A stretch of 64,000 nucleotides of DNA from an uncultured Bacteroidales bacterium. GTDB lineage: Bacteria; Bacteroidota; Bacteroidia; Bacteroidales; Bacteroidaceae. The stretch lies in assembly GCA_902779165.1 (NCBI GenBank), contig CACZAN010000005.1, forward strand, positions 1 through 64,000. The letters run 5' to 3'. A model generated the notes under the pieces. That model was given only the letters and a program-made list of their open reading frames with translations. It had not been told where the DNA came from and made no database searches. The translations under genes and the position numbers were made by a program. Shown here piece after piece: positions 17,583 to 50,063 of this stretch (position 1 is its first letter; each line of letters begins with the position of its first letter).

Positions 17583-17802
17583 ATGAGTAAGTATAGAGAC
17601 TCGTGCGAGGAACTATAGTTTGTAAGGCGAGGAACTATAGTTTGTCGCACGACGGACTATACTTCCATCTCAGACAACCCTTCGTGAGGACGTGGACATA
17701 TATACGTGAGGCGCTTTATGTATATACGTGAGGCGCCTTACGTATATACGTCCTGACAGCTATCTATATTCGTCCCGACAGCTACCTATATACGCAAGAC
17801 AG
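17583..17802. repeat. 22-bp-period array, ten units
   Basis: Ten consecutive 22-bp units run without gaps from 17583. Neighbouring units form similar groups: two share GCGAGGAACTATAGTTTGT, and later ones share TATATACGTGAGGCGC or TCGTCCCGACAGCT-like segments. Each group has a dyad such as AACTATAGTT or GTATATAC near the unit centre. There are no unique spacers, so it is not a CRISPR array, and no reading frame spans it. The function is unknown. Confidence 0.85.
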
Positions 17803-17826
17803 GAGGGGACTGGCCCCTCCTGTCTT
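17796..17826 (-). terminator. Hairpin terminator
   Basis: A perfect 13-bp stem (AAGACAGGAGGGG and its complement) around a five-base loop lies 25 bp past the stop codon of the secreted protein gene. T-runs on both sides are short, so it may act in both directions. Confidence 0.65.
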
Positions 17827-17850
17827 ATTGAATGGTCGATGTGAATCAAC

Positions 17851-20800
17851 TTACTTCACGATAACCTTCTGACCGTTGAGGATGTAAGCACCCTTCGGCA
17901 GGTTGGAGATTGTGTTGAGGTTGCCATTGCCGATCAGACGACCGTCGAGTGTGTAGATGCCACCCTGGCGGTTCACCTTCTGGATAGCAGCGGCGATGCC
18001 GTCTTCGAGGTTTTCATCGAAAGTAATCTTAACGATGGCAGCCTTGCGCAGGAAGCCTTCATTGCCTTCTGCTGTATCGGTGATGTAAACGCGGTTGTCA
18101 CCGGTGGTCGTACCAGAGTTCTTGAAAGCAAGAGCCTTGTCTTCAGTACCAGAACCGATAGCCATGAACTTCACATCAATCGTCTTGCTGTCGAAGGCAC
18201 CCTTCAGGTAGTTCTTGGTCTGAGGAGCATTGACAAGGTCGAGGGTGAAGCTGAACACGGGCATGACGGGATCATACTCGTCACCTTCCTCGGGCATTTC
18301 ACCAGCAGCAACGATGATGAACGGACGGCCGGCAGGAACCGTGGGATCGGTAATCTTAGCGAGGGTTACGCTTACCTGCTCAATAGCTTCATCGGTTGCA
18401 TCAGGAGTGCGCTCAATACTTGCGATGGTCCAGAGGGTTGCCAGTTCAGGAGTCTTCAGCGTTACGGGAACGGGATAGCAGCGGCCGTAGATGTCGCCAG
18501 GAGTGAGGCTCATCTTGTACTCACCACTTGTGGGATAGCCAGCAGCTACGTCTTCAACTTCCTCAACGAAGAAGCTGCCACGACGGCCGTCAGAATCTGT
18601 CCAGCCAGAACCGGTTTCATTACCCCAAGCGCAGAGGACACTCTGGCTCTGAGCCAGGTGCATAGGACTCTTACCGTTGCCTTCGACGGACTTGTTGAAG
18701 AATGCATTCTGACCATAGCCAGAGGGATGCTGGGTGAAGAGGCCGGGCTGGGCACTCAGATAAACACCATTATGGATATAGAGGCCGGTAGCCTTGTTCT
18801 GGATAGCATAGGCGCTGTCGCCGACAGATACGAATCTCCAAAGAGCCATATCGGGATCGGTGAGCTTGTCGAGGTCGATACCGAAGATGGACTTGTCGAT
18901 GATGATGTCTTCCTTGGCGATGGGCTCAATCACGTTACCCATCACATCTTCCTGATTATCATTCTGGCCAAGTACCACTTCCTCTCTCTTAGCAACAGCA
19001 ATGTACTTGCCGAAGAGACCGTAGTTGTAAACTCCGAGGGTATCTTCATCAACAACCCAGTAGTTGGGGAAGTTACCATTCTTATTCCAGCCATACTTGT
19101 CGTATTCAGCCTCGGTACCGAAGCGCAGACGATACCATTTGCCGGTCTTCACCTTGATGGGAGCGTCGGCAATAACCTTCATCTGGGCATTGAGCTGAGC
19201 GTTGAAGGCATCGCTCTGAGCAGGAGTGTAAGCACCTGCTACATCATAAGCCTTGGCATCAGTAAGAATCTTGGTGATGGCGCTGGTGGTGCCTACAGGC
19301 CAGAAGCCGGGATTCGAACCTTCGACAACTTCCTTAATGGATTGCTCTGCCAGTGCGATGGTGTCGCGCAGGGCCTTCGGGTTCACGTAGAGGGCTACGA
19401 AGTCATTGTAAGCCTTCTGCAGCACGAGGTAGTTGGTCTCGTAGTCGAGAGCATCATCTTCGATTTCGCTGAAGTCTGCAACCAGCTGCTCGAGAGTGGT
19501 GGCCACAGAGCCCATGGCAATATACTGCGACTGGGGATTCTCTACATCGTAGCACAGCTGAATCTCGGAGAGGTGGAAGAAGGCGCTACCGGCGTTGTTC
19601 TGCTCATTGTAGAAGCGGATATACTTGTAGCCCTTGGTTTCGAAGAGGTCAGACTTGAAGGACTCCTTCTGGTTGGAGGAATTCCAGGGGCTCTCGAAGG
19701 TGGCGAGTTCCTCGCAGTCGTCGTACGTAGCCTCTTCGTCGTTGGTGCCCATGAACGACCAGTTAGTGATCTGGTTGTTGTTGGTGTCGCGGCGAGTAAA
19801 TCTCATGTAGATCTGCTGAGCTGAATCAAAGCCCTCGGGCATTTCAACCTGCAGATAGTGTTTGCCATCGGGATACTCCTTGCCTTCGGAGGCAGACCAT
19901 ACGCTGTGCCAGTAAGTGGTGATGTCACCATCGATCAGCACACCGTCGCTGAGGTTACCGCCGTCCTTGTTGCCAAGGTCATTCTGGCTGAACGGACTGC
20001 TAAACTGAGAAGCCTCGGTGATGAGGTTCACCTGATGCACGTCCTTGGCAACTTCGATCATACCGGGAGCGGCCTTCATCATCATCTTGAAGTCGTCGAC
20101 CCAGACATCCTTATTCTTATAAGGTTCAAAATCTGCAATAATCTGAGCTGCCTCGTCAGCAGGAACTGCCTCGAAGAACCACTCAGAGGCACCACAGGTA
20201 GGAGCACTATAGCTGGTAGACCAGCCTACGAGGTAACCGTTATTGCCATTACCATCGCTGTGACCATTCTGATGGAGATAGAAGAAGTCATTAGCAGGCT
20301 GAGTAGCCAAGCGGATGTTGACATAGGCGCGCTCGTAGTCGATATCGTATCCTGCAGCATCGAAGGCCAGCAGCGTATCGGCATAAGCCGGATCGGTGGT
20401 CATTTCCACATTGGTGCTGCGGGCAACTTTCATGAAGCGGCCGTCGTTGTACATGTTCACGATATCATAGGTGCTGTCGCTCTTGATCTCAATTTTCCAG
20501 AGAGCCTGGATATTATCGGTCAACTCGTCGAAGTCAGGAGTACCCCAGATACCCCAGATCTTACCTTCGTTACGATAACCCATCATATACTTGTCACCAG
20601 TGAAGTATTCCAGACCGGCACGGATGCGGTAGTAGCCGCTGCCTGCAGGCATATCCTTACTCCGGAACGGAACCTTCGTGGGAGCAATAGCCTCGGCGGT
20701 CTTAACGATGAGCTCGCGAACCTCATTCATCTTTTCTGCTGTATCTACATCAGGATCAATCGCGACGTATGCATCCAGAGCCAACAAGAAATCATCATAG

Positions 20801-21552
20801 GCCTGCTGACTGTACTGACCCGGGTTTTCGCCCAGACAATCCATATAAGAATCCTGATATGGCTGATACTTTTTATAAGCAGCTTCCAAATCTAACCAGG
20901 CAGCTTCATTATCGGACATCTTTGTAACTGGATAGATGTTGAAGTCGCCGATGTGGAAATAACCGCGAGTGCCGTAGTCGCCGGTACCAGTTTCCTTCTC
21001 AGAATAGAAACGGAGGTACATGTATCCACCGGTCTTGAAAGGAGTGGACATGCAGACATCGAGCTTACTCGTGAACGGAGTCTCGATATAAGCGAGTTCC
21101 TCGCAATCAGCCTTTTCTGCCTCGGGATCGTCGGTACCCATCACCAGCCATTCGGTGGTGTGGTCGTTGTCGGCATTTGTACGACGGGCATAAACAAATG
21201 CGATTAATGTCTCTTCATCGATTCCGTCAGGCATCTCTACCTGAAGGTAATGGGTTCCGCCGTCTACATTACCGCCTCTCCACACGCTGTGCCAGAATGT
21301 GTCGTATTTACCATCGAGAAGCACACCGTCAGAAAGGTTGCCGCCATCGGGATTACCTAAGTCATTCTGACTAAAGGGGCTGCTGAACTGCTCAGCATCA
21401 GTAATGAGCGGATTCTCGTGGTCAACTGTGTAGCCGTCGCGAGAAATCTTGTCCCATTCAAACTGGTTTTCCAGATTAATGTCTTGTGCAAACGTATTCG
21501 TGCTGAAAAACAGCCCAAACAACGCTGCAAGAAGTAGGTACATTTTCTTCAT
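17851..21552 (-). CDS. Large secreted discoidin-like protein, paralogue A
   Basis: This exported protein of 1,233 residues starts with a signal peptide (MKKMYLLLAALFGLFFSTNTFAQ); the frame is open to 21627, but this start fits a leader. Two regions, about residues 45-205 and 510-670, share FSSPFSQNDLGN.DGGNLSDGVL.DG and YLQVEMP and resemble F5/8 type C (discoidin) carbohydrate-binding domains. The C-terminus has GGIYTLDGRLIGNGNLN and ends NGQKVIVK, like type IX secretion tails of Bacteroidetes. No catalytic domain is recognised. It is a tandem paralogue of the next gene. Surface binding of glycans is inferred. Confidence 0.85.
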   Translation of the reverse strand: MKKMYLLLAALFGLFFSTNTFAQDINLENQFEWDKISRDGYTVDHENPLITDAEQFSSPFSQNDLGNPDGGNLSDGVLLDGKYDTFWHSVWRGGNVDGGTHYLQVEMPDGIDEETLIAFVYARRTNADNDHTTEWLVMGTDDPEAEKADCEELAYIETPFTSKLDVCMSTPFKTGGYMYLRFYSEKETGTGDYGTRGYFHIGDFNIYPVTKMSDNEAAWLDLEAAYKKYQPYQDSYMDCLGENPGQYSQQAYDDFLLALDAYVAIDPDVDTAEKMNEVRELIVKTAEAIAPTKVPFRSKDMPAGSGYYRIRAGLEYFTGDKYMMGYRNEGKIWGIWGTPDFDELTDNIQALWKIEIKSDSTYDIVNMYNDGRFMKVARSTNVEMTTDPAYADTLLAFDAAGYDIDYERAYVNIRLATQPANDFFYLHQNGHSDGNGNNGYLVGWSTSYSAPTCGASEWFFEAVPADEAAQIIADFEPYKNKDVWVDDFKMMMKAAPGMIEVAKDVHQVNLITEASQFSSPFSQNDLGNKDGGNLSDGVLIDGDITTYWHSVWSASEGKEYPDGKHYLQVEMPEGFDSAQQIYMRFTRRDTNNNQITNWSFMGTNDEEATYDDCEELATFESPWNSSNQKESFKSDLFETKGYKYIRFYNEQNNAGSAFFHLSEIQLCYDVENPQSQYIAMGSVATTLEQLVADFSEIEDDALDYETNYLVLQKAYNDFVALYVNPKALRDTIALAEQSIKEVVEGSNPGFWPVGTTSAITKILTDAKAYDVAGAYTPAQSDAFNAQLNAQMKVIADAPIKVKTGKWYRLRFGTEAEYDKYGWNKNGNFPNYWVVDEDTLGVYNYGLFGKYIAVAKREEVVLGQNDNQEDVMGNVIEPIAKEDIIIDKSIFGIDLDKLTDPDMALWRFVSVGDSAYAIQNKATGLYIHNGVYLSAQPGLFTQHPSGYGQNAFFNKSVEGNGKSPMHLAQSQSVLCAWGNETGSGWTDSDGRRGSFFVEEVEDVAAGYPTSGEYKMSLTPGDIYGRCYPVPVTLKTPELATLWTIASIERTPDATDEAIEQVSVTLAKITDPTVPAGRPFIIVAAGEMPEEGDEYDPVMPVFSFTLDLVNAPQTKNYLKGAFDSKTIDVKFMAIGSGTEDKALAFKNSGTTTGDNRVYITDTAEGNEGFLRKAAIVKITFDENLEDGIAAAIQKVNRQGGIYTLDGRLIGNGNLNTISNLPKGAYILNGQKVIVK

Positions 21553-21656
21553 ACTACTAAAGTTAATTAAAAGGGTTAATAAAGATTTTACTGATTTCAC
21601 GTTCATTTGCTGTCTATTCGTGCCCATTTACGGACATTTTGCCTACATTGCGAGTG

Positions 21657-21664
21657 CAAATATA
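21657..21664 (-). promoter_or_regulatory. -7 box of paralogue A
   Basis: TATATTTG on the minus strand lies about 105 bp upstream of the ATG. It would give a long 5' leader, as seen also for paralogue B. The -33 box is not clear. Confidence 0.45.
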
Positions 21665-21682
21665 GGTGGATTGCCCGAAACG

Positions 21683-21718
21683 TTTAACGCCCCACGTGTT
21701 AAAATCGCGGGGCGTTAA
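21683..21718 (-). terminator. Hairpin between the two discoidin-like genes
   Basis: The stem TTAACGCCCC / GGGGCGTTAA lies 70 bp past the stop codon of paralogue B. The T-run (TTTTTT) is on the plus-strand side, so bidirectional use or a minor role are both possible. Confidence 0.55.
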
Positions 21719-21789
21719 GATTTTTTAACTAAAAGCGGCCTTTCTAAGCCAATTCAAAGCCGACGAAGGGGCTAACAAATGGGTTTAGA

Positions 21790-24700
21790 TCACTTCACCA
21801 TGACTTTTGCACCATTTATGATGTAAACGCCCTTGCCAAGCGAGCGGAGATCATTGAGATTACCGTTGCCGATGAGACGGCCGTCGAGGGTGTAGATGGC
21901 ACCACGCTGGCTGATTTTGGAAAGGGTGGCGGCAATGCTGTCAGGATGATCAGTGCTGATGACAAAAGTTATCTCATCGGCAGTAGTCACGGTCTCATCG
22001 GACACGATGTATGCGGTGTTGGCCGCGATGGTGCCGCTCATGAAATTAGTGACGACAAAGCCGTTGCCCTGCGGGAGGATGTAGCCCGACCCGAGGTCCT
22101 GAGAGATGAAGGTGCCCTTCAACGGACGTTCGGTCTGCGGCTTGGTAACGAACTCATAACCATGCTTGAATGTAACAGGAGCTACTTCAGCTTCTGCATC
22201 ATAATCATCCGTGTCTCCGTTGAGGTAGAGGAATGGACGGCCAGCGCTGGCTTCCTCAATGGGCTGCAGGGTGATTTCCTTGCCACTGATGCTGAGTACA
22301 TCGTACATCTGGCCATCTGCGACTGCAATGTTTACAGGATAGCAGAAGGAATAGAACTCACCCACACGAATATCCTGCTGGTACGCAGAGCCGTCGTAGC
22401 CTGCGGCTACACTTTCCACCTCCTCGATATAGAGTCCACTGCGGCTGCCGGGCGTGTAGGCATTCCAGGTCACCAGCTGGTTGAAGCTGCGGGCTGCATG
22501 GAGGTTGTTCTGCACATCACCTGTCAGACTCCTGGAGGCGATGATGTTCTGTCCGTAGCCGATAGGACTTACGTTAAAGAGCGAAGGTTGCACGTTGAGG
22601 AGCACACCACCAGAGGTACCGGAAGCTTTCAGGAAGAGACCTGTAGCTTTGTTCTGAAGAGCATAGGCACTGTCGCCGACTGCTACAAACCGGAACAATG
22701 AGTAGTCCTTATTCTCGATATCTTCGTCAGCATCGAGGAAGACAGGTTGTCCAATACGCACAGTCTCGCCGTCTATAGGTTCAATATAATGGACGCCCTC
22801 CTCAGTTCTGTAGGCAGCAACAGCAACATACTTGCCCCAAAGAGCCTCATCGGTTTCCACCTCATCGCCATTGACGACAGCGGCTCCGGCTTCTTTGTCC
22901 CATCCATACGTCTCAAACTCTGTCTCAGTACCGAAACGGATGCGATACCACTTGCCAGTTTCTATACCGATAGCAGCAGCCATAATGTCGTCGGCCTGCT
23001 GACGAAGGGTCTGGATATATCTCGTGCTTGTCTCTTCCAGATAGACACCGGCTTCATCATAAGCCTTAGCATCAGACACCGTCTTGGCAAGTGCTGCGCC
23101 TACGTTGGCATCTTTCCAGAAACCGGGCTGTGTGCCAACCACAATTCCATCGGCAAGATTCTCGACAGAAGCAAGCACCTCGCGCAGTTCTGCGGGATCT
23201 ACATACTTGGCCACAAAGGCATCATACGCCTCCTTCAAGGTGTTGTAGTCTGCTTCCTCGATATCTGAAATATCCTTATTAGCTTGACTCACAAGCACAG
23301 CTTCCAGGTTCTTCGATGCCTCGCCCATCAGCGCATACTGTGAAGTGGGATTGACCTTGGCCTCATAGAGTTGGAACTCGCTGACGTGACCGTAGCCGCG
23401 CCCTGTTGTCGTTCCATCGATGTAGAAGCGGAGATGCTCGTAGCCCTTGGTGTCAAAGAGGGATGTACTGATGGTTTCAGTATTGCTGCCAAAAGGTGTT
23501 TCGAGGCTGGCCAGTTCTTCCCAGTCCTCATCATCGGCCTCAGGATCATTGCTGCCGAAAACACCCCAAAGTGTGATGTGGTCGTTAGCAACGGCACGGC
23601 GAGTGATGGTCATACGCACCAACTCATTGGTGGGTTCATTGAGGGCCACCTGGAGGTAGTGGGTATGATTATCCACAGAGGATGACCAGTCTGAATGCCA
23701 ATAGGTTGCGGCATTGCCGTCGATCAGGTTGTCGATGCTGCCTTCACGAGTCTCTGTCCAAGGAGAACTGAATTGACTGTTCTCGGTAATGAGCGGGGTG
23801 AGAATATAGTCCTTAGCCTTCTCCAAAGCTGCAGTGGCATCGGTCTTCAACTGATTGTACTCGGCCTCGAAGGCTTTGCGTGCCTTAATAGGTTCATAGG
23901 CGGCAATGATAGCAGCAGCCTCGTTCTCAGGCACGGCTTCCAGAATCCATTCCGAAGCGGCAGGAGTCGTCGTGTTGTAATTATAAGTGGAATAGTAGCC
24001 CACAATATATCCACTCGTTCCTTTGCCGCTGTTGTGGCTGTTCTGATGGAGATAGAGACCTTCAGCTCCGTCCTGAGTGGATACGCGGATATTGACGAGA
24101 GTCACTCCGTCTACAGTCGTGACAGGATCGAAAGCCATCAGGTTCTCTGAGGCTGGATCCATCGTCGGAGTCTTGCTAATGCTAACATTGTTGAAGCGGC
24201 CATCGTGATACATACTCTGTACATCGAAGTAGCCGTCCTTGTTCGTCACCTTCCAAAGCGTCATAGCGCGATCCTCTACATCTTCGTCATCGGGGGTGGC
24301 CCAGATGGCACAGAGTGTGCCATTGGAATTGTAGCCCATCATGTACTTGACCACATCCTCATCTTCGTTGCTATAAATCATAGCTGCGCGGAAACGGTAG
24401 TAACCATCGGCGACAGGATAGGTCATCACCTTCGATGCAACAACCGCTTCGTAGGTGTCGAGGATATCCTGCGTCAGTTTCTTGACGGAAGCGATTTCTG
24501 CTTCTGTACTGCTTTTATCGACATTTCCGGCAATGCCCTTGTTCAGCGCATCATAGAAAGCAATGACCTCAGCCTCACCGTAAAGGCCCGGCTCTGTTCC
24601 AATCTTGAAATAGCTTTCATCCAAGGTTTCGGCATAATACGCCATATACTTGTCGATTGTAGCTGTCAGTTCGTCCCAGGCGAGATCCAGAGGAGATTTT

Positions 24701-25233
24701 GGCTTCAGTACTACAACGAAGTTGCTGGTGTTGGCAAAGGTAGGGCTTCCGCCCAAGGTGGAAACAGTGAAGATAAATTCGTCTTCAGACATGTCTGTTG
24801 CTTCGATATGTTCTGCCTCCGTAGTACTGTAGCATTCCACAACCTCGTCATCCGGGAAGGTGATGGATACACCCTGGTCGTTGGCACAGACGAAGTCGAA
24901 GCTAACCTCGGCAATCTGGTATCCGTCGGTAGCTCTGAGGTGGTAGTTCTCAGAGGTCGTGGAACCACCGAGAGAGTTGTAGAACTGAATGTCTGTCTTG
25001 TTAGGAGCATAATAGGCCATATTATTATTGTGGCCTCCGCTGGCGTTCGTGTGTTCGATGATGAGGGAAGGGGAGCCGTAAGATTCCCATCTCGAGGCCC
25101 AGGTCTTGTTAGAATTGGCGGCCGTCCAGTCACCAGTTCTGTTATTCACCTCGATGGTAACAGCTTCGTCTTGCGCCACGGCAGTAGCACACAGAGCCAT
25201 CATCATGAACAGAAATGTGTAGATTTTCTTCAT
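21790..25233 (-). CDS. Large secreted discoidin-like protein, paralogue B
   Basis: This exported protein of 1,147 residues has a signal peptide (MKKIYTFLFMMMALCATAVAQ). A discoidin-like region at about 485-640 has LIDGNAATYWHSDWSS and HYLQVAL. The segments around GKWYRIRFGTE and DYSLFRFVAVGDSAYALQNKATGL are shared with paralogue A. The tail GAIYTLDGRLIGNGNLN...NGAKVMVK is a type IX-secretion-like sorting signal. An N-terminal domain of about 150 residues is different from paralogue A. No enzyme motif is seen. It has its own promoter (25287-25317) and probable terminator, so the pair is not necessarily one transcript. Confidence 0.85.
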   Translation of the reverse strand: MKKIYTFLFMMMALCATAVAQDEAVTIEVNNRTGDWTAANSNKTWASRWESYGSPSLIIEHTNASGGHNNNMAYYAPNKTDIQFYNSLGGSTTSENYHLRATDGYQIAEVSFDFVCANDQGVSITFPDDEVVECYSTTEAEHIEATDMSEDEFIFTVSTLGGSPTFANTSNFVVVLKPKSPLDLAWDELTATIDKYMAYYAETLDESYFKIGTEPGLYGEAEVIAFYDALNKGIAGNVDKSSTEAEIASVKKLTQDILDTYEAVVASKVMTYPVADGYYRFRAAMIYSNEDEDVVKYMMGYNSNGTLCAIWATPDDEDVEDRAMTLWKVTNKDGYFDVQSMYHDGRFNNVSISKTPTMDPASENLMAFDPVTTVDGVTLVNIRVSTQDGAEGLYLHQNSHNSGKGTSGYIVGYYSTYNYNTTTPAASEWILEAVPENEAAAIIAAYEPIKARKAFEAEYNQLKTDATAALEKAKDYILTPLITENSQFSSPWTETREGSIDNLIDGNAATYWHSDWSSSVDNHTHYLQVALNEPTNELVRMTITRRAVANDHITLWGVFGSNDPEADDEDWEELASLETPFGSNTETISTSLFDTKGYEHLRFYIDGTTTGRGYGHVSEFQLYEAKVNPTSQYALMGEASKNLEAVLVSQANKDISDIEEADYNTLKEAYDAFVAKYVDPAELREVLASVENLADGIVVGTQPGFWKDANVGAALAKTVSDAKAYDEAGVYLEETSTRYIQTLRQQADDIMAAAIGIETGKWYRIRFGTETEFETYGWDKEAGAAVVNGDEVETDEALWGKYVAVAAYRTEEGVHYIEPIDGETVRIGQPVFLDADEDIENKDYSLFRFVAVGDSAYALQNKATGLFLKASGTSGGVLLNVQPSLFNVSPIGYGQNIIASRSLTGDVQNNLHAARSFNQLVTWNAYTPGSRSGLYIEEVESVAAGYDGSAYQQDIRVGEFYSFCYPVNIAVADGQMYDVLSISGKEITLQPIEEASAGRPFLYLNGDTDDYDAEAEVAPVTFKHGYEFVTKPQTERPLKGTFISQDLGSGYILPQGNGFVVTNFMSGTIAANTAYIVSDETVTTADEITFVISTDHPDSIAATLSKISQRGAIYTLDGRLIGNGNLNDLRSLGKGVYIINGAKVMVK

Positions 25234-25317: not shown

Positions 25318-25327
25318 GGAAAAGTAA

Positions 25328-42300: not shown

Positions 42301-43263
42301 ATGAATTATCGCGAACTCATCCGGCAACTCACGCCACAAACAGGTGCAGGCGAGGCTCAGGCCATCGTCCGATGGGTGATGGAAGAGCGCTTCGGGCTCA
42401 CCCAGACCGATCTTTTGCTCGGCAAAGATACAACATTATCCGCAGACGACCGCACAGAATTCGAAAAAATTGCATCCCGACTGCTCTCTGGGGAGCCAGT
42501 TCAGTATATTTTAGGCTTTGCAGACTTCTGCGGCCACCATTTTTATGTCACTCCCGATGTACTCATTCCTCGTCCTGAGACAGAGGATCTGGTGAACGAA
42601 GCAATAGCTATCACTCGTCAGAAAAACTGCGACAATCCTCTCAAAGATTATCCTTCTTCCATTCAGTATCCCGGCACTCCATCTCCCATCCACATCCTCG
42701 ACCTCTGCACAGGCAGCGGCTGCATTGCCATCTCTCTCGCACTCGCTCTTCCAGAAGCTCACATCGTAGGAGTAGACATTAGCGAACCGGCGCTTGCCGT
42801 AGCTCGCGACAACGCCACTCGCCTCGGCGCTTTGAATGTTGAATTTTTCCAACAAGATATCCTCCAGTCCATTCAATCTTTCAATAGTTCCTCTCGAGCC
42901 AGCTCGCTTGATGCTTCAAGCACTCGGCGCCTTGCGACGCTCCACACAGGGAGAACCTTTCAACTTCTCACCGCCAACCCCCCTTACGTCCGCACCAGCG
43001 AGTCTTCTGAGATGTCGTCCACCGTCCTCGACCACGAACCGCACCTGGCCCTCTTTGTGCCTGATGACGACCCACTGCTCTTCTACCGCGCCATTGCCCG
43101 CATCGCCCGTCGCACCCTCCTGCCCCACGGCCATTTCCTGCTCGAAATCAACACGGCCCTGCATGAAGAAACCCGACAACTGTTCACCGCTGCCGGGTTC
43201 CATAACCTTCAGATTATCAACGACCGCTACGACCGCCCCCGCATCCTTCTCGGAGAGGCATAG
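42301..43263 (+). CDS. prmC: Release factor glutamine methyltransferase
   Basis: PrmC methylates the GGQ glutamine of peptide chain release factors. The 320 residues include the substrate-binding N-terminal helices, DLCTGSGCIAISLALALP (SAM motif I, about 136-153) and the catalytic NPPYV at about 224-228. An extra stretch of about 30 residues (QSFNSSSRASSLDASSTRRLATLHTG) lies just before NPPYV and has no counterpart in usual PrmC proteins; it looks like an in-frame insertion, and its DNA starts with ATTCAATCTTTCAATAG, as in the simple repeats elsewhere. Confidence 0.92.
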   Translation: MNYRELIRQLTPQTGAGEAQAIVRWVMEERFGLTQTDLLLGKDTTLSADDRTEFEKIASRLLSGEPVQYILGFADFCGHHFYVTPDVLIPRPETEDLVNEAIAITRQKNCDNPLKDYPSSIQYPGTPSPIHILDLCTGSGCIAISLALALPEAHIVGVDISEPALAVARDNATRLGALNVEFFQQDILQSIQSFNSSSRASSLDASSTRRLATLHTGRTFQLLTANPPYVRTSESSEMSSTVLDHEPHLALFVPDDDPLLFYRAIARIARRTLLPHGHFLLEINTALHEETRQLFTAAGFHNLQIINDRYDRPRILLGEA

Positions 43264-43280
43264 GATCTACCGTCACAAAC

Positions 43281-43859
43281 TTACTGAGTTCGAGTCAGAG
43301 TGAATGGAGTCTTCTTGTCGAAGGTGCCATAAAGCTTTTTTCCGTCGGCCGACAGGCGCAAGGTATCCAGTTCACCATCGTCGTTCAGTATAACGAGATT
43401 TCCCTTGACCTCATAAGTAGCCTTCATCGTAGAAGGAGCCACCGCTAACGCGGCTTTCATCGCCTTGCGCTTCAGCCAAGGGATGCCGGCAGCCTTCAGC
43501 ACATCGTCCGAGACCTTCATATTCACTTTCATTGTGGCATTCTTTTCCGTCTTGAACTCCACGGTGATAGCCGTCTTCAAACCTTTCCTCACAGCAATTA
43601 TCATTTGCTGCGCTTCCTTGGCCTTCTGTTCCACCTCGGCCTTTTCGGCTGCTGTCAGTTGGCGTCCTTTTTCCCGTTCGGCCTTGACAAGAGCCTCGTG
43701 CTTGGCAGAATCTATTTTCTGATCCATATTATCCATCTCGCCATCCATCAGGGAGGCAATGATGTTTGCATTATAATATTTACGTCCGACCAGGCTCTGT
43801 GCCTGAACATTCAGGGCAGTCATTACGCCGACTGCAACCATCAACAGAATCTTTTTCAT
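43281..43859 (-). CDS. Small exported protein of unknown function
   Basis: This 192-residue protein has a signal peptide (MKKILLMVAVGVMTALNVQAQ). After it comes SLVGRKYYNANII, a lysine- and glutamate-rich helix (about 45-90) and a beta-rich C-terminal part (TMKVNMKVSDD, KATYEVKGNLVILN, KKLYGTFDKKTPFTLTR) that resembles lipocalin-like DUF families of Bacteroidetes. No catalytic motif is seen. It is convergent with prmC (17-bp gap) and lies downstream of the tRNA-Leu. Confidence 0.7.
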   Translation of the reverse strand: MKKILLMVAVGVMTALNVQAQSLVGRKYYNANIIASLMDGEMDNMDQKIDSAKHEALVKAEREKGRQLTAAEKAEVEQKAKEAQQMIIAVRKGLKTAITVEFKTEKNATMKVNMKVSDDVLKAAGIPWLKRKAMKAALAVAPSTMKATYEVKGNLVILNDDGELDTLRLSADGKKLYGTFDKKTPFTLTRTQ

Positions 43860-43920
43860 TGTTGTAGGTGGATAATAATCGGTGAAGGAGTTATTTTAAC
43901 TTGCAATTCGTTAATTCCAT

Positions 43921-43955
43921 TTCCCCCGCCTCAGCCGAAGCTGTGCGGGGGAAAT
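43921..43955 (-). terminator. GC-rich hairpin after the tRNA
   Basis: TTTCCCCCGC and GCGGGGGAAA pair exactly around a 15-bp loop, 20 bp past the tRNA 3' end. The following bases lack a T-run, so the role as terminator is probable but not certain. Confidence 0.5.
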
Positions 43956-43977
43956 TCTGTGGAATTTTGTCTTCAGT

Positions 43978-44058
43978 ACCCCGAGCCGGGGTCGAACCGG
44001 CACGGGTTTCCCCACTGGTGTTTGAGACCAGCGCGTCTACCGATTCCGCCATCGGGGC
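43978..44058 (-). tRNA. tRNA-Leu (CAA)
   Basis: The D-arm (GGCGGAATCGGTAGACGC), an anticodon arm CTGGT-CTCAAAC-ACCAG with anticodon CAA, a long variable arm (TGGGGAAACCCG), and the T-arm GCCGG-TTCGACC-CCGGC are all in place. The acceptor stem is unusual: the 5' strand GCCCCGA has four C, but the 3' strand reads TCGGGTA with only three G, so two of the seven pairs are lost or one base is missing. A base-call error in the G run is possible. CCA is not encoded. Confidence 0.85.
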
Positions 44059-44185
44059 TCGTTAAGACGCGGCAAAGGTACGACAAATTAGTCATTCAAC
44101 AGCACATTCTTGCCAAAAAATGTTGAAATCACTAAAAAATAATGCTTTTTTTAAAGAAAAAGGCGGGAGTTTGTAATGTTAGTTG

Positions 44186-44193
44186 TATCTTTG
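44186..44193 (+). promoter_or_regulatory. -7 box of the keto-sugar cluster
   Basis: TATCTTTG lies 55 bp before the start codon. TTTG occurs only 12 bp upstream, not at the standard 19-20 bp. Confidence 0.45.
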
Positions 44194-44247
44194 CACCACC
44201 GAAACGGCTTTTAAGCCTATGAAAACTTGTTAGAACCTAAGAACTGA

Positions 44248-45339
44248 ATGAACATGATCACTATCGGAATTATAGGGTTCGGACGCATGGGACGATGCTA
44301 TCTCAAGGCTATACAGGCGGACGAACGATACCGAGTGACTTATATTTGTGACCCCGACGAGCGGTGTCGCAAATTGGCCCATGAAATGGCACCCGAAGCA
44401 CGCATTGTGGCAGAGGAATCTGCCGTATTGGAAGATACCGACGTACAGGTGGTGGTTCTTTGCGCTCTCTGCGACACCCGACTCAACCAAATAGAACGGG
44501 CACTGGCTGCCGGAAAACACGTTATCACCGAAAAACCCTTGGCAGACAATATTGAGCGCGAATGGCAATGCGTGGAGTTGGCCGAAGAGGCCGAGAGACG
44601 CGGGCTGTTCTGCACCGTAAATATGTATCTGCAGAACTCCTGGTATCACCATCTGATGCGCGATATGGCAGAAAGCGGAGAGATCGGTCAGCTCGCTATC
44701 ATGCGCATCTGCCACATGACCCCCGGACTGGCTCCCGGCGAAGGTCACGAAGCCGAAGGCCCCTCGTTCCACGATTGCGGCATGCACTATGTGGGGCTGG
44801 CAGGCTTCTTCACACATTCCGATTTTAAGACGTGGCACGCGCAGGCGCTGCGTATGTGGTCGTGGAAGGATCCATGGTGGCTGCAGGCCCACGGTACGAT
44901 GCAGAACGATGTCGTCTTCGATATCACCCAGGGATTTGTCTACGGACAGCTCTCCAAGGACCAGACCCACAACTCCTACGTAGAACTCATCGGCACACAG
45001 GGCTTCTGCCGCATGACGCATGACTTCAAGACGGCGGTTGTGGAACTGCACGGAGTGACCCGCACAGAACGCATCGAACGGCCCCACGGCGGAAAGAACA
45101 TTGATGTGCTGCTGAACGAGATGGCAGAGAGCATCCTCACAGGCAAGCGCCACAAGGACATGCCGAAGTTCCGCTGCTCCGCCAAGGCCTCGGACTATGC
45201 CTGGCGCTTCCTCAACGATGCCTGGGAACATGACATTCCCGCAATCGGCACCCTCGACGAACTCGAGCGCATCCGCGAGCGCAGGCGCACAATGACTGAC
45301 GGCTATGGACTTCTGCCACGCAACAACAAGAATGTATGA
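44248..45339 (+). CDS. Gfo/Idh/MocA-family oxidoreductase
   Basis: This 363-residue cytoplasmic NAD(P)-dependent enzyme has IGIIGFGRMGRCYL (Rossmann loop), ITEKPLADN (the EKP motif with the catalytic lysine) and a C-terminal alpha/beta domain with FHDCGMHYVGLAG. The family oxidises or reduces a hydroxyl of sugars. It starts a four-gene run with a second oxidoreductase and two DUF1080 proteins, so oxidation at C3 of glycosides is the likely role. A TATCTTTG box lies at 44186-44193. Confidence 0.85.
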   Translation: MNMITIGIIGFGRMGRCYLKAIQADERYRVTYICDPDERCRKLAHEMAPEARIVAEESAVLEDTDVQVVVLCALCDTRLNQIERALAAGKHVITEKPLADNIEREWQCVELAEEAERRGLFCTVNMYLQNSWYHHLMRDMAESGEIGQLAIMRICHMTPGLAPGEGHEAEGPSFHDCGMHYVGLAGFFTHSDFKTWHAQALRMWSWKDPWWLQAHGTMQNDVVFDITQGFVYGQLSKDQTHNSYVELIGTQGFCRMTHDFKTAVVELHGVTRTERIERPHGGKNIDVLLNEMAESILTGKRHKDMPKFRCSAKASDYAWRFLNDAWEHDIPAIGTLDELERIRERRRTMTDGYGLLPRNNKNV

Positions 45340-45425
45340 GTCCCATAAGCCCCATAAGTCCTATAGGTCTCATAGGCTCCATAAGTCCCACTTTAAACTC
45401 TAAACTTTAAACTTTAAACCCTAAA
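45339..45425. repeat. Short-period repeat between the two oxidoreductase genes
   Basis: Units of about 9-10 bp (CCCATAAG, CCTATAGGTCTCATAGG) are followed by ACTTTAAACTCTAAACTTTAAAC units. No gene or clear promoter is seen in the gap. It has the same character as the arrays at 1880-1939 and 15130-15175. Confidence 0.7.
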
Positions 45426-45436
45426 AACTCCCCTCT

Positions 45437-46918
45437 ATGGCAGACCTTACAAGAAGAGATTTCCTCAAGCGCGGCTCCGCTGCGCTGGCGGGCATGATTG
45501 TTGCCCCCACCATCGTTCCCAGCACCGTACTGGGCGCAAAAGTAGGTAAAAAAGCACCCAGCGACAAGCTGAACATCCTTGGTGTTGGCATTGGCGGACG
45601 CGGTGCTTCCGACATCGCAGAAATGGCAAAGACCGAGAACATTGTAGGACTTTGCGACTGCGACTGGAAGTACGCCAAGCACGTCCTCGACCGCTACCCC
45701 GATGCCAAGAAGTACAACGACTACCGTAAGATGTACGACGAGATGCTGAAGAGTGCCGACGCTGTCATGGTAGCTACCGCTGACCACACACACGCTATCA
45801 TCGCTGCCGACGCCATGGCCGCCGGCAAGCACGTGTACGTCGAGAAGCCAATGACGCTGTATGCCTACGAGAGCCGTCTGCTCACCCGCATGGCCGCCAA
45901 ATACAAGGTCGCCACACAGCAGGGCAATCAGGGTGCCTCCAGCGCCGGTTCCCGCCAGGCCATCAACTGGCTGTGGAACGGCGAGATTGGCGAGGTGACG
46001 AAGATCGAAGCCTTCACCAACCGTCCCATCTGGCCGCAGGGCATGGCCACTCCCACCGAGGCACAGCCCGTGCCCAGCACCATGAACTGGGAAGCCTTCA
46101 TCGGCCCCGCTCCCATGCGCCCCTACAACGAAGTCTACACGCCTTGGAACTTCCGCGGCTGGTGGCCCTTCGGCTCCGGCGCACTCGGCGATATGGCCAA
46201 CCACATCCTCGCTGTCGCCTTCACGGGTCTGAAGCTCGGTTCCCCCACCGCCATTCTCGGCAGCTCCACCATGCTCATGCCCGACTCTTGCCCCAGCGCA
46301 CAGAAGGTCACCTATCGTTTCCCCGCCCGCGACAACCTGCCTAAGCTGGGTCTCCCCGCCTGCGAACTGACTTGGTACGACGGCGGTCTGCGCCCGAACA
46401 TCCCGTTCGAGATGCCCGAAGGCAAGCACTTCGACGGCAATGGCGTCTGCATCTTCTACGGTACCAAGGACATCATGGTCGTGGGCACCTACGGCTACGA
46501 CCCGTTCCTCGTCAGCGGGCGCAATCCTAAGGTTCCGGAGCTCTGCCGCATCGTCAAGGACGACAACCACCAGCAAGACTGGATCCGTGCCTGCAAGGAG
46601 AGTGCCGACAGCCGCATACCGGCCAGCTCCGATTTTGCCATCAGCGGTCCCCTCAACGAGAACATCGTCATGGGTGTTGCTGCCGTACGACTCCAGGAGC
46701 TCGACCAGTGGCTGAAGTGGGACGGCGAGAAGATGCAGTTCACCAACATCTCTCCCGATGCCAAGATCCACGTCTCCAACGCCATCGAATTCTCCATCCA
46801 CGACGGTCATCCCTCGTTCAGCGCCGCCGACAAGGTCGAAATCAATGCCGCCGAGTACGCTGCACGTCTCATCAAGCCCGTCTATCAGAATGGATTCGTG
46901 CTGCCCGAACTGCCCTAA
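45437..46918 (+). CDS. Exported Gfo/Idh/MocA-family oxidoreductase (Tat signal)
   Basis: The N-terminus has a twin-arginine signal (RRDFLKRGSAALAG followed by a hydrophobic run), so the folded enzyme with its cofactor is sent to the periplasm. The body has GVGIGGRGASD, VEKPMTLYAYE (EKP motif) and a substrate domain with WRPYNEVYTPWNF-like aromatic segments. The 493 residues are typical of the exported branch that sits with DUF1080 proteins. A role in oxidising glycosides to 3-keto-glycosides is inferred. Confidence 0.9.
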   Translation: MADLTRRDFLKRGSAALAGMIVAPTIVPSTVLGAKVGKKAPSDKLNILGVGIGGRGASDIAEMAKTENIVGLCDCDWKYAKHVLDRYPDAKKYNDYRKMYDEMLKSADAVMVATADHTHAIIAADAMAAGKHVYVEKPMTLYAYESRLLTRMAAKYKVATQQGNQGASSAGSRQAINWLWNGEIGEVTKIEAFTNRPIWPQGMATPTEAQPVPSTMNWEAFIGPAPMRPYNEVYTPWNFRGWWPFGSGALGDMANHILAVAFTGLKLGSPTAILGSSTMLMPDSCPSAQKVTYRFPARDNLPKLGLPACELTWYDGGLRPNIPFEMPEGKHFDGNGVCIFYGTKDIMVVGTYGYDPFLVSGRNPKVPELCRIVKDDNHQQDWIRACKESADSRIPASSDFAISGPLNENIVMGVAAVRLQELDQWLKWDGEKMQFTNISPDAKIHVSNAIEFSIHDGHPSFSAADKVEINAAEYAARLIKPVYQNGFVLPELP

Positions 46919-46929
46919 AGAAAACGACT

Positions 46930-47745
46930 ATGAAGAAATTATTGTTATTGATCAGCTTTGTGGCCGTTGCTGTGAGTGCTTCGGCACAAAAGAATAAAAC
47001 TGCCACCATCGTCTGCTCTCAAGGCTTCCAGGGTCCTGAACTGTGGGACCGCCACGAGCTACCCATCGACAAGAAGGGATTCATCACCATCTTCGACGGC
47101 CAGACCTTAGCCGGCTGGCGCGGCTATGGCAAAAACCACGTGCCCTCCAAATGGAAGGTACAGGACGGCGCCATCTTCTTCGACAGCAAGGCCAAGGGTG
47201 AGGGCGGCGATATTATCTTCGCCCACCAGTTCGGCCCCAACTTCGAATTCGAGATGGAATGGAAGATAGCTGAGGGAGGCAACTCCGGCATCTTCTACCT
47301 CGCCCGCGAAGTAGCAAATGCCGAGCGCACAGGAGTAGAGCCCATATACATCTCCGCCCCCGAGTGCCAGGTACTGGACAACGAACGCCACCCCGACGCC
47401 AAGCTCGGCAAGGACGGCAACCGCATGTCCAGTTCCCTCTACGACATGATTCCCGCCAAGCCACAGAACGCCAAGCCGGCAGGACAATGGAATAAGGTAC
47501 GCGTGCGCGTGAACGACGGCCACGTACAGCACTTCCAAAACGACGTCGAAGTCCTCAGCTACGACCTCTGGACGCCCCAGTGGACAAAGCTCCTGCAGGA
47601 AAGCAAGTTCAGCGAGCAGGCCTGGCCCACCGCCTTCGACCTCCTCAACAACTGCGGCGGCCCCGAGCGCAAGGGATTCATCGGAATGCAGGATCATGGC
47701 GATAACGTGTGGTATCGTAATATCAAGGTAAAGATTCTAAATTGA
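46930..47745 (+). CDS. DUF1080 protein (3-keto-glycoside hydrolase/lyase type), copy 1
   Basis: This 271-residue exported protein has a signal peptide (MKKLLLLISFVAVAVSASAQ) and a jelly-roll domain: FITIFDGQTLAGWRGYG, FEFEMEWKIAEGGNSGIFYLA, ECQVLDNERHPDA and SLYDMIPAK are DUF1080 hallmarks. Characterised Bacteroidetes members cleave 3-keto-glycosides. The open frame extends upstream to 46708, inside the previous gene; the ATG at 46930 follows that gene's stop by 11 bp and begins a leader. Confidence 0.9.
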   Translation: MKKLLLLISFVAVAVSASAQKNKTATIVCSQGFQGPELWDRHELPIDKKGFITIFDGQTLAGWRGYGKNHVPSKWKVQDGAIFFDSKAKGEGGDIIFAHQFGPNFEFEMEWKIAEGGNSGIFYLAREVANAERTGVEPIYISAPECQVLDNERHPDAKLGKDGNRMSSSLYDMIPAKPQNAKPAGQWNKVRVRVNDGHVQHFQNDVEVLSYDLWTPQWTKLLQESKFSEQAWPTAFDLLNNCGGPERKGFIGMQDHGDNVWYRNIKVKILN

Positions 47746-47770
47746 AACGTTGAAAAATTGAAAAATTGAA

Positions 47771-48634
47771 ATGAAAAAGACATTATTAGGTATTGTATGT
47801 GCCTTCATCGGCGGTGTTGTCGGCTTCTTCATCGGCAAGTGCGGTTGCGGAACCTGCGAAGCCCCTGAGGTTGAAACCGCAGAGAGCCTCGTGGCCCAAG
47901 TGGCCGACGGCCCCAATATCGATATCGCCGCACTCCCCGTGGATGACGAAGGATTCACCCTACTCTTTGACGGCCAAACGTTGAACGGCTGGCGCGGCTA
48001 CGGCATGGACGTACCTCCCACCAGCTGGGAAGTCAGCGACGGCGCCATACATCTGAAAGGCTCCGGCACCGGCGAGGCTCAGGTGGAAGGCGGTGGAGAC
48101 CTCATCTTCGCCCATAAGTTCCAGAACTTCGAGCTGCAACTGGAGTACAAGATCTCCGAGGGCGGCAACTCCGGTATCTTCTATCTCGCTCAGGAGGTGA
48201 AGGATGCCGAGGGCAAGGAATACCTGCCCATCTGGCAGTCCTGCTCCGAATACCAAGTCCTCGACAACGCCAAGCACCCCGATGCCCAGCTCGGTGTCGA
48301 TGGCAACCGTCAGGCGGCTTCGCTCTATGATATGATTCCCGCCAAGCCACAGAACGCCAACCCCGCGGGCGAGTGGAATCAGGCCAAGATCATGGTCTAC
48401 AAGGGAACCGTCGTTCATGGTCAGAACGGCCAGAACGTCCTCGAGTACCATCTTTGGACTCCGAAGTGGACCCAGATGCTGCAGGACAGCAAGTTTGCCG
48501 AGGGCGGCGACTTCCCCTACGCCTTCAACCTCCTGAACAACATGGGCGGCGAAAACCACGAGGGATACATTGGTCTTCAGGACCACGGCGACGACGTCTG
48601 GTACCGCAATATCCGCATCAAGATTTTAGATTAA
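47771..48634 (+). CDS. DUF1080 protein, copy 2, membrane-anchored
   Basis: The 287-residue protein repeats the DUF1080 motifs of copy 1 (LLFDGQTLNGWRGYG, EGGNSGIFYLAQEV, YQVLDNAKHPDA, SLYDMIPAKPQNA). The N-terminus (MKKTLLGIVCAFIGGVVGFFIG) is followed by KCGCGTC; it is not a standard lipobox and may act as a membrane anchor with a cysteine cluster, unlike the cleaved leader of copy 1. The 25-bp gap before it contains ATTGAAA repeats. A strong terminator follows at 48663-48704. Confidence 0.87.
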   Translation: MKKTLLGIVCAFIGGVVGFFIGKCGCGTCEAPEVETAESLVAQVADGPNIDIAALPVDDEGFTLLFDGQTLNGWRGYGMDVPPTSWEVSDGAIHLKGSGTGEAQVEGGGDLIFAHKFQNFELQLEYKISEGGNSGIFYLAQEVKDAEGKEYLPIWQSCSEYQVLDNAKHPDAQLGVDGNRQAASLYDMIPAKPQNANPAGEWNQAKIMVYKGTVVHGQNGQNVLEYHLWTPKWTQMLQDSKFAEGGDFPYAFNLLNNMGGENHEGYIGLQDHGDDVWYRNIRIKILD

Positions 48635-48662
48635 ATCACTCATCCTTTCAATTCTTAACGAC

Positions 48663-48704
48663 ACCGCCGCAAGCTACGATGAAGCCTGCGGCGGTTCCTT
48701 TTTC
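48663..48704 (+). terminator. Rho-independent terminator of the keto-sugar cluster
   Basis: The stem ACCGCCGCA / TGCGGCGGT around a 15-bp loop is followed by TCCTTTTT. It lies 28 bp past the last DUF1080 stop codon. Confidence 0.8.
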
Positions 48705-48870
48705 CCGCCCCACCCTTTTCTGACAGCCAGCAAGACACCACCTTTGCGCCAGCCAAGAACACCCCCAAAAAACAGAGCATTTTTTCAAAAACACACTGCA
48801 CCAAACCTCTAATAATCGATTGGGGTTTAAGATTATTCGGTACGCGACAAAGAACACAATTTGCTCGCTC

Positions 48871-49021
48871 GCGCACGCGCATGAATTAAAACATGAAAAA
48901 ATGAACTGAATCTACTGCAAACCAATATAACACATTCTACGTCAACAATATATATTGCAGTAGATTTTTCAAAACATAGACAAACTGCAGTAGATTTATT
49001 TAAGTAGGTGTTCATAATTAG
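48871..49021 (-). repeat. CTACTGCA element, copy 2
   Basis: This copy reads on the minus strand. Boxes start (minus-strand order) at 48995, 48965 and 48919, giving the same 30- and 46-bp offsets as copies 1 and 3. Similarity to copy 1 is high through the whole element, including the left edge GAACACCTACTTA and the closing CGCGTGCGCG-type run. Confidence 0.8.
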
Positions 49022-49039
49022 TTTTATGTTTTTTATCTT

Positions 49040-49290
49040 CTATTTGGATACAGGTTTTTCTTTTCTTCGAAGGAACTTAGCGGGCTAAGTGACCGAGAGG
49101 AAGAGGAAAAAATGCGCCAAGCGACGGAGCAGCGAGCGCCATCCAAGCTTGCTTGAAGATGGCCGAGATTCCCGAGCAAAGCTCGCCCGCTCAGCCCAAG
49201 AGGACGCTCCACACTTGGAGAACCCGTAGCCTTTCGTGACGGAGTTCGGCGAAGCCAGTGAGAAATAAAAAAACAGGAACTCACCTACAG
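49040..49290. other. GC-rich intergenic stretch without a gene
   Basis: Between CTACTGCA copies 2 and 3 lies a G/A-rich then GC-richer stretch. Reading frames on the minus strand (about 70-80 codons) are rich in arginine and serine, begin at different points and have no recognisable domain, so they are not called. Such sequence can be a remnant of a degraded repeat. Confidence 0.4.
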
Positions 49291-49356
49291 ACAAAGATAA
49301 TGTAGAATAATTCTGAATACCTACTTATAATTTAGAGGACGCGAAGACGCAAAGTT

Positions 49357-49444
49357 GAGTTCCAGCAGTGGAATTCTCGAGTTCCAGCAGTGGAACTCGC
49401 GACTTCCAGCGGTGGAACTCACGAGTTCCACCCTTGGAATTTTC
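49357..49444. repeat. 22-bp-period palindromic array, four units
   Basis: Four 22-bp units run head-to-tail. The core is GAGTTCCA-NNNN-TGGAACTC, a near-perfect dyad, with two spacer bases. A partial fifth unit (TGGAACTCC) follows. The period is identical to the arrays at 17583-17802 and 49954-50063 although the sequence is different. Confidence 0.88.
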
Positions 49445-49509
49445 TGGAACTCCATTCCCTATTTCCTCCTCAACACTACAAAATTGTCATCAAAAGCATA
49501 AAAATCCGA

Positions 49510-49651
49510 GTTCATAAGCAGATAAATCTACTGCAAAAAGCATCTATTCACAAAAATCTACTGCAATCTAACTATCATATATTTAATAGATTATCGCCGT
49601 TTGCAGTAGATTCAGTTGATTTTCTCATGTTTTTGAATAATCGCGTGCGCG
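49510..49651 (+). repeat. CTACTGCA element, copy 3
   Basis: Boxes start at 49526, 49556 (direct) and 49602 (inverted), with the same 30- and 46-bp offsets as the other copies, but the sequence between the boxes has diverged. The CAGTT-ATTTT-TCATGTTTTT tract and a CGCGTGCGCG run close it. Confidence 0.8.
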
Positions 49652-49784
49652 TGAGGAAATATAGTTACTTTCACAACAGACTCGTTCGTTCCACTTAAGG
49701 CCATAATCCTTATGACTGGTCATCGGGGTGGAAACACATATACGCAAGGACACCCCGCACGACAAGGCTTAGATCTGACGTTTT

Positions 49785-49928
49785 GCAAAAAGTTGACGCA
49801 AAAACACTCCGAACACTCCGATACACTCCGAATGACCTCCTTCAATTGTCATCTTGAGATGGCAAACTGACTACAAAAAAATCGGAGTGTATCGGAGTGT
49901 TCGGAGTGTTTTTGCGTCAACTTTTTGC
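49785..49928. repeat. 47-bp inverted repeat with internal 10-bp repeats
   Basis: Arms 49785-49831 and 49882-49928 are exact 47-bp reverse complements with a 50-bp loop. Each arm carries ACACTCCGA-type units three times. It lies between convergent genes (48634 and 50133). It follows the same plan as the repeat at 17390-17491, but the sequence is different. Confidence 0.9.
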
Positions 49929-49953
49929 ATTATCTTATACCGAACTCACGTTA

Positions 49954-50063
49954 ATTATGCGTCACGGCTTCCACGATAATGCGTCACGACTTCCACGAAA
50001 GGACGTAAGCGTTCGGACGTATATACATAAACCTCCTCACGTATATACATAAACGCCATCCGA
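49954..50063. repeat. 22-bp-period array, five units
   Basis: Five consecutive 22-bp units start at 49954, 49976, 49998, 50020 and 50042. The first two share ATGCGTCACGRCTTCCACG and the last two share TATATACATAAAC. No gene is seen. It follows the 47-bp inverted repeat just as the array at 17583 follows its hairpin. Confidence 0.85.

Follow-up and report, generated by a model that had tools for sequence, protein, structure and literature searches.

The window analysed here, the first 64,000 nucleotides of contig CACZAN010000005.1 (assembly GCA_902779165.1) of an uncultured Bacteroidales bacterium, contains three arrays of tandem units with a period of 22 bp, located at positions 17583-17802 (array 1), 49357-49444 (array 2) and 49954-50063 (array 3). 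All three are situated between convergent genes. Array 1 is flanked by the gene of RNase R (15215-17329, Pfam RNB) and by that of a protein with an F5/8 type C domain; the other convergent pair encodes a 3-keto-disaccharide hydrolase and a protein without Pfam match. When segments of 66 bp were compared with the sequence 22 bp further on, the best identities were 51, 54 and 43 for arrays 1, 2 and 3, respectively. Simulating the window 40 times with a third-order Markov model gave no identity as high as 40 at any of the 51 lags from 10 to 60, the best being 38 overall and 33 at lag 22. This confirms the places and the period that had been put forward in a sequence-only reading of this DNA.

Arrays 1 and 3 are composed of more than one module, and none of the modules is assigned to a strand. 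Array 1 starts with module A (17583-17670), in which the dyad AACTATAGTT is present at 17611-17620 and 17633-17642 and, more weakly, in a third unit at 17649-17670, the first unit being poor. Through a bridge unit (17671-17692) without a clear dyad by eye it continues into module T (17693-17802), which carries the dyad ACGTATATACGT and ends in two divergent units (CTATATTCG and CTATATACG). Array 2 consists of module F (49357-49444), four units GAGTTCCA-NNNN-TGGAACTC with mismatches. Array 3 combines module C (49954-49998), two units near ATGCGTCACGACTTCCACGATA, with another module T (50017-50063) that has the dyads ACGTATATACAT at 50017-50028 and 50039-50050. Complementarity around the array axes indicates that the central dyads noticed earlier are real, and neighbouring units do resemble each other, having halves in common as judged by eye. 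The ten units counted in array 1 follow the period, with 17583-17604 and 17671-17692 as poor members (by eye). The three arrays had been regarded as unrelated in sequence; this does not hold, as module T is present in both array 1 and array 3 and 50015-50057 matches array 1 at 89%. The period had also been described as free of slipped bases, which is correct inside a module and incorrect across modules: the A and T axes of array 1 are 64 bp apart (20 modulo 22) and the C and T axes of array 3 37.5 bp (15.5 modulo 22). The 22-bp period is strict within a module, not between modules. Spacers of the clustered regularly interspaced short palindromic repeats (CRISPR) type were not seen by eye in the window arrays, in agreement with the earlier reading. 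Rfam at gathering score, applied to the window, gave no match at the arrays and a tRNA (43977-44058) as its sole match, and megablast of 47700-53000 against plasmids gave none.

Period and modules in the source genome and its relatives

The source genome is a 3.59-Mb draft of 75 contigs that is 86% complete. Its closest RNase R proteins in named genomes belong to Bacteroidales drafts (87, 84 and 81% identical), two of them from sheep or goat rumen, and the carrier group appears to be rumen Bacteroidales. A search of the source genome with array 1 and its short flanks gave 55 matches, self matches and repeats on both strands included. A sample of 41 stretches (786,736 bases, 22% of the genome) was composed of the window, 20 stretches picked by array 1 matches, 12 taken at random from other parts of the same contigs and eight more, six of which were picked by matches (stretches are designated L, other genomes G). 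With a threshold of at least 40 matches in 66 bp and lags from 10 to 60, lag 22 gave 47 places, 25 of them palindromic, and lag 44 gave 24; all other lags gave 0 to 12. In the 12 random stretches (240 kb) there were eight places at lag 22 versus five at the runner-up lag, i.e. about one per 30 kb. Tandem Repeats Finder (TRF), which favours no period, placed 68 intergenic rows of the 41 stretches at period 22, 47 of them without an insertion or deletion, and no more than 14 at each other period; some of the stretches had been selected for their similarity to array 1. In windows of 44 bp the best lag was 22 in 270 of 270 cases, but these lay inside places picked at lag 22, so that this proves little.

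Five dyad types were distinguished in this genome: T (ACGTATATACGT), A (AACTATAGTT), G (GTCTCACNNGTGAGAC), F (GAGTTCCANNNNTGGAACTC) and C (AAGNCGTNACGNCTT). They were sought with 1 to 4 mismatches, and three or more dyads were taken as a chain. The resulting 38 chains contain 151 pairs of adjacent dyads of the same type, of which 148 are spaced at 22.0 bp and three at 44.0 bp. T pairs within 120 bp behaved likewise (64 of 68 at 22; the others at 44, 44, 57 and 66). More than one dyad type occurred in 22 chains. Of these, 19 agree with one arrangement, C-T-G-F-A in either direction, if types may be missing; the three misfits (L010, L012 and L114) have one weak match out of order each. Just 7 of the 22 mixed chains hold at least three types (6 of the 7 fit, L114 does not), so that the positions of G and F are less secure than the order of T, C and A. 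The T-C axis distance was 15.5 modulo 22 in 15 of 18 cases, and the T-F, T-G and G-F distances were 22.0 in 6 of 8; eight distances involving A had no common phase.

The units of module T show what is constant in a row. Across 88 T units the information content was 0.17 to 0.68 bits in the 10 spacer columns and 0.95 to 2.0 bits in the 12 dyad columns; the dyad values are inflated because units were selected at no more than two mismatches to the dyad. The letters of the spacer vary while its length is constant, and spacers differ between loci where the dyad recurs. Letters 2 and 11 of the dyad vary as C/T and G/A, but both together in only 1 of 91 units (Fisher p 6e-4 for the four main classes, units within an array not being independent). 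Two of the 91 T dyads in arrays fall within called genes. Many T arrays of this genome are polar (e.g. L022 9389-9590 and L012 6696-6790), the weaker half ACAT/ATGT being mostly on one side; by eye this polarity has no tie to the strand of the adjoining genes.

Lag 22 also stood out in the genus, sampled as 40 stretches from 27 other species (663,896 bases): it gave 33 places, of which 23 were palindromic, followed by lag 21 with 17 and lags 14 and 15 with 13 each, while lags 17, 19, 20, 23, 25, 26, 29 and 31 gave 0, 0, 0, 2, 1, 0, 0 and 2. A lag-22 place was present in 14 of the 27 genomes and a palindromic one in 13. Five stretches (L144, L145, L146, L157 and L161) had been chosen by array 1 matches; without them, 28 places remained in 35 stretches, with 12 of 26 genomes having any and 10 of 26 a palindromic one. 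TRF gave 46 intergenic rows at period 22 (35 without insertion or deletion) and at most 12 at other periods. The dyads vary by species (GACGCGCGTC, CTCCCCTAGGGGAG, GGTTAACC, GTCTACGCGTAGAC, TCATGA with CAATTG, GACCCGGGTC and others); the T dyad of the source genome was also found in G003.

Beyond the genus, the RNase R region was sampled at 80 loci in named records of Bacteroidota (1.2 Mb). These yielded seven lag-22 places, all palindromic, and at most one palindromic place at any other lag except 44. One place is in a Prevotellaceae draft (L035), one each in Phocaeicola plebeius (L041) and its sibling (L042), two are in a Bacteroides draft (L043) and one is in each of two Belliella species (L073, L074); together these are five independent cases. 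Without the palindrome filter lag 22 did not stand out in these loci (7 places versus 6 each at 16, 21 and 24), nor did it with TRF (10 rows at period 22, 15 each at 18 and 21, and 14 at 14). No lag-22 place was found in 639 kb (33 stretches) representing other families of the class and phylum or in 50 kb of Escherichia coli, and an order-level sample (19 stretches, 362 kb) contained a single weak, non-palindromic one. TRF, here not limited to intergenic DNA, gave one period-22 row in the 52 order, class and phylum stretches. From the one weak place in the 19 order-level stretches and none in the other 33 it follows that the trait is not general in Bacteroidota. The 22-bp arrays are dense in the genus, scattered elsewhere and not seen in most samples. 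None of 147 other genomes in the phylum contained the T-T pair pattern, up to two mismatches being allowed, and its exact form occurred in 0 viral contigs. A phage origin was rejected on this ground, both tests being of module T only. The period thus recurs at other sites and in relatives, with other sequences and without drift inside modules, so that the refuting outcome named in the sequence-only reading, a period that is missing elsewhere or drifts, did not occur.

Gene context and the nature of the symmetry

Genes were called with a simple codon-usage caller and the convergent share was taken over intergenic bases. The arrays of the source genome lie between co-oriented (19), convergent (15) and divergent (5) genes or at stretch edges (8); in the genus these numbers are 11, 9, 6 and 7. 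By a slightly different context rule one place of the source genome falls inside a gene. Convergent gaps hold 15 of 39 arrays in the source genome and 9 of 26 in the genus, compared with 20% and 18% of intergenic bases. Overall this excess (24 of 65, p 0.0007) includes some arrays that share one gap. The expectation that arrays lie mainly between convergent genes, true of all three in the window, was not borne out in general: convergent placement is an enrichment, not a rule.

RNase R as a preferred site was rejected, as an array is found within 1 kb downstream of it in only 2 of 20 loci of the genus. The source genome has array 1 at this position and G003 an array of another sequence, while 18 of 20 relatives lack one within 1 kb. 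Control of one gene class was rejected as well: of 91 flanking genes listed, 20 had their proteins scanned, and these are mixed. In L121, lag-22 places at 10090-10211 and 10262-10433 lie at and upstream of the start of a gene for a DUF4143 (AAA_14) ATPase (8899-10164), and the gene that follows the Belliella array (L073 6238-7398) resembles it by eye.

An enrichment between convergent genes is also what might be seen if the arrays acted as RNA hairpins at transcript ends, in termination, mRNA stability or as processed small RNA. Module F could form a good hairpin, and array 1 is closed on the plus strand by a putative terminator-like stem-loop, GACAGGAGGGGACTGGCCCCTCCTGTCTTATT (17798-17829), read by eye. 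The symmetry was examined in 54 palindromic arrays (25 from the source genome, 23 from the genus and 6 of the 7 from the RNase R loci, L043 10988-11076 being left out). In 50 of the 54 the axis falls between two base pairs, as it does in 27 of 29 when the source genome, whose arrays share dyads, is set aside. Complementarity at the strong axis was 0.51, 0.58, 0.62 and 0.65 at 0.5 to 3.5 bp, with its peak at 2.5 to 3.5 bp, chance being 0.25; at the second axis it was 0.33 to 0.40 within 4.5 bp. It runs right up to the strong axis, so that on average no loop of the RNA type is left. Because the arrays had been selected as palindromic, the parity of the axis and the absent loop are the informative points. 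In the transcribed sense 18 co-oriented palindromic arrays had 135 G·T and 163 A·C mismatches, hence no wobble excess. An axis between base pairs and the lack of a G·U excess favour a double-stranded DNA dyad over an RNA hairpin. With, in addition, no Rfam match at the window arrays and 11 of the 65 classified arrays between divergent genes, an RNA function is quite improbable.

Companion hairpins, module order and array change

Close to array 3 a hairpin termed H is found (49784-49929, no strand) with arms GCAAAAAGTTGACGCAAAAACACTCCG... that contain 9-bp CACTCCGAA repeats. It belongs to a dispersed family with eight loci in the 787-kb sample, further copies being L012 6314-6457, L018 18060-18205 (plus one arm at 7370), L019 8587-8700, L020 9128-9273, L027 5667-5813 and L122 8525-8636. 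All 15 arm matches are within 223 bp of a 22-bp array. This proximity, the recurring module order and the constant T-C, T-F, T-G and G-F distances described above would be expected if the arrays were minisatellites inside a composite resembling a miniature inverted-repeat transposable element (MITE), made up of the H hairpin and modules C-T-G-F-A. Such a composite would be multiplied by a transposase in trans, its units would change in number by slippage or unequal exchange and the period would merely be inherited.

Some arrays could be compared between close relatives. The two Belliella arrays occupy the same place with nearly identical flanks, and the single gap in their alignment is exactly 22 bp long and lies in the array, which counts in favour of the composite. 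In the Phocaeicola pair the units were kept. An orthologous array in G027 and G035, whose genes are about 85% identical, keeps three TCATGA and two CAATTG sites, the same length and no gap; one 5-bp spacer shows matching changes in two of its three units and the second spacer in both of its units, so that spacers changed together in most units. The preservation of sites and length beside altered spacers favours sites for a protein, the joint change of spacers the composite. A 383-bp block with an F-T array (L024 8902-9284 and L161 1779-2161) is 100% identical in two genomes, and a block adjoining it is 97% identical, at another distance.

A match to a Y1 (RAYT-type) transposase was found in 14 of 41 genomes and was strong in the source genome, G013, G027, G032 and G035, all of which carry arrays. 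Lag-22 places occurred in 5 of 5 genomes with a strong match versus 10 of 23 without (p about 0.03, calculated by hand and post hoc). No match at E 0.001 was obtained in the array-rich genomes G012, G016 and G033 (drafts, 86-92% complete), and spread by a Y1 transposase is possible but not required. A copied or mobile composite is best supported by the hairpin, the module order and the weak Y1 association. Against it are the T spacers, which vary by locus while the dyad recurs, and the occurrence of the same pitch with unrelated dyads in other species and genera, besides the lack of a Y1 match in the three array-rich genomes. As the cause of the pitch, an inherited period in a MITE-like composite is less likely than not, yet it is the main rival of the docking rows described below.

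About 80 bp before array 1 there is a long inverted repeat (17387-17494, no strand) whose arms are 9-bp repeats AATCCACCG. Long inverted repeats with arms of tandem repeats of about 7-12 bp recur in the genus with a sequence that differs by locus (L210 8125-8280, L211 5132-5224, L204 14998-15161, L154 265-552 and L015 8392-8507, besides that in the window). Long inverted repeats of any kind are only mildly enriched within 400 bp of the arrays of the source genome (23 of 49 versus 27% of intergenic bases, p 0.002) and not of those of the genus (4 of 22 versus 17%). Another dispersed intergenic palindrome, near GGTAGCCAGCCAATTCATTGGCTGG, is present at 312-459 of the window, L013 7804-7922, L111 10034-10172 and L161 1583-1726.

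A proposed docking-row model and its relation to known systems

Symmetry, fixed spacing, a dyad that recurs with a variable spacer, spread over many loci and dyads specific to species are what is seen here; protein binding, its cooperativity and any role of the rows are what we infer from them. On balance the arrays can be read, with a probability of about 40%, as docking rows for dimeric DNA-binding proteins that set the pitch. A row would offer one two-fold symmetric double-stranded site of about 10 to 16 bp per 22 bp, and dimers would occupy these sites side by side. If neighbouring dimers touch, a pitch of 22 bp (two turns, one monomer per ~11 bp) would result and the letters of the spacer would be largely free. 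Several proteins or specificities per genome would account for modules C, T, G, F and A, and as the pitch is common to the modules the putative binders probably belong to one structural family. The dyad that is recognised would shift fast between species. A bound row would more likely mark or silence intergenic DNA, in chromosome organisation or as a block to read-through, than switch a particular gene; this role is preferred because the arrays are intergenic and about twice as frequent as expected between convergent genes. If dimers bind cooperatively, one would expect a symmetric site that recurs, a spacer constant in length but not in letters, and a common pitch for dyads of unrelated sequence; the same pitch with different dyads among species of one genus supports such binding. 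Protein binding at a two-turn pitch, one of two ideas in the sequence-only reading, is the better supported one.

Several observations weigh against docking rows. Lag-22 places without a palindrome are numerous (22 of 47 in the source genome, 10 of 33 in the genus). Module C is less symmetric and has its axis on a base, and in 45 A units columns beside the dyad are partly conserved, with up to 1.24 bits. The recurring module order is unexpected for independent binding sites and speaks for composite copying. The flanking proteins scanned are ordinary as well as mixed, and no binding protein was found among them. Relaxed B-DNA has 10.5 bp per turn, so that 22 bp is slightly above two turns. Docking rows and a composite may also both exist, the composite element carrying the rows.

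The other idea was copying with a fixed step, in which an integrase, transposase or hairpin-primed polymerase would build the arrays in steps of 22 nt. This would agree with a single pitch for many unrelated sequences and with the exact spacing inside modules. Inside one array such a copier is not needed, because duplication of a unit inherits any period; inheritance alone is not a ready explanation either, since the unrelated dyads in Phocaeicola and Belliella also have 22 bp. No candidate enzyme was found, the one Cas1 of the genome being encoded on another contig, and a recurring dyad with a variable spacer is not explained by copying alone. A fixed-step copier is thus improbable.

It is conceivable, though rather unlikely, that the arrays represent a new kind of chromosomal element in which a conserved family of dimeric, filament-forming proteins sets the pitch and the dyad changes fast with each species and paralogue. 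Protein and array would then resemble a co-evolving pair of recogniser and satellite, in Bacteroidota and with several specificities per genome in a fixed order. Repeats are normally recognised by their sequence, whereas spacing and symmetry are the invariants here; consequently, sequence-based repeat finders would miss the kinship of the arrays across species. If a protein family sets the pitch, gut bacteria that are mostly uncultured would have a binding system spread over the whole chromosome for which our searches found no name, and changes in specificity could be read from genomes. Carriers in strain collections, Phocaeicola plebeius DSM 17135 and Belliella pelovolcani DSM 46698, make the idea testable. 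Part of the matching titles in the open-licence literature, with subscription papers and preprints outside this scope, contained no report of a family of 22-bp palindromic arrays.

Among the closest known systems is BrickBuilt. It is a MITE with a 23-nt minisatellite in Porphyromonas gingivalis, with one 23-nt sequence at 19 places in ATCC 33277 and leader and tail matches in P. gulae (PMC4596501). Both are intergenic and dispersed in Bacteroidota and have tandem units of near size without gaps. BrickBuilt has inverted-repeat ends; the arrays described here differ by their 22 bp, several palindromic dyads, variable spacers and other dyads per species. The H hairpin beside arrays at eight loci might be the counterpart of its leader and tail. 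A unit of the BrickBuilt type, with one conserved 23-nt sequence, was ruled out by 22 bp in 148 of 151 cases and by T spacers of 0.17-0.68 bits. Repetitive extragenic palindromes (REPs) and bacterial interspersed mosaic elements of the GTAG and CGTC superfamilies are palindromes of 20-40 bp with an end tag, and dimer partners are mostly 20-100 bp apart (PMC3733652). The arrays share with REPs the short extragenic palindromes, the many copies and the species-specific families, and differ in keeping one fixed pitch. The Y1 transposase expected with REPs is matched strongly in five genomes with arrays but not in three that are rich in them. The GTAG or CGTC tag is not present in the T and A unit columns; the letters CGTC occur in module C, no systematic search having been made.

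CRISPR is defined by repeats of 24-48 bp and unique spacers of regular size (PMC3733652). It was rejected because the whole period is 22 bp and the sole Cas1 match is on contig C44, the window being on C5. TIGR (tandem interspaced guide RNA) arrays lie beside a tas gene and are processed into a 36-nt dual-repeat unit with 9-nt spacers, and some Tas arrays contain palindromic stem-loops (PMC12045711). Like these, the present arrays repeat in tandem in a form that would suit a symmetric dimer, and variable segments separate the repeats; unlike these, they have a period of 22 bp, are dispersed and have ordinary neighbour genes. A TIGR origin was rejected on the period, 22 instead of 36-nt units. 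A Nop-domain Tas gene was absent from the scanned flanking proteins, no search directed at Nop having been made. In iterons and tandem operators with ~22-bp phasing, protein sites lie on one face of the DNA at two turns, normally at one locus per replicon or promoter. The 22-bp arrays differ from these by their many chromosomal loci and several dyads, and share with tandem operators the symmetric site at a fixed helical pitch.

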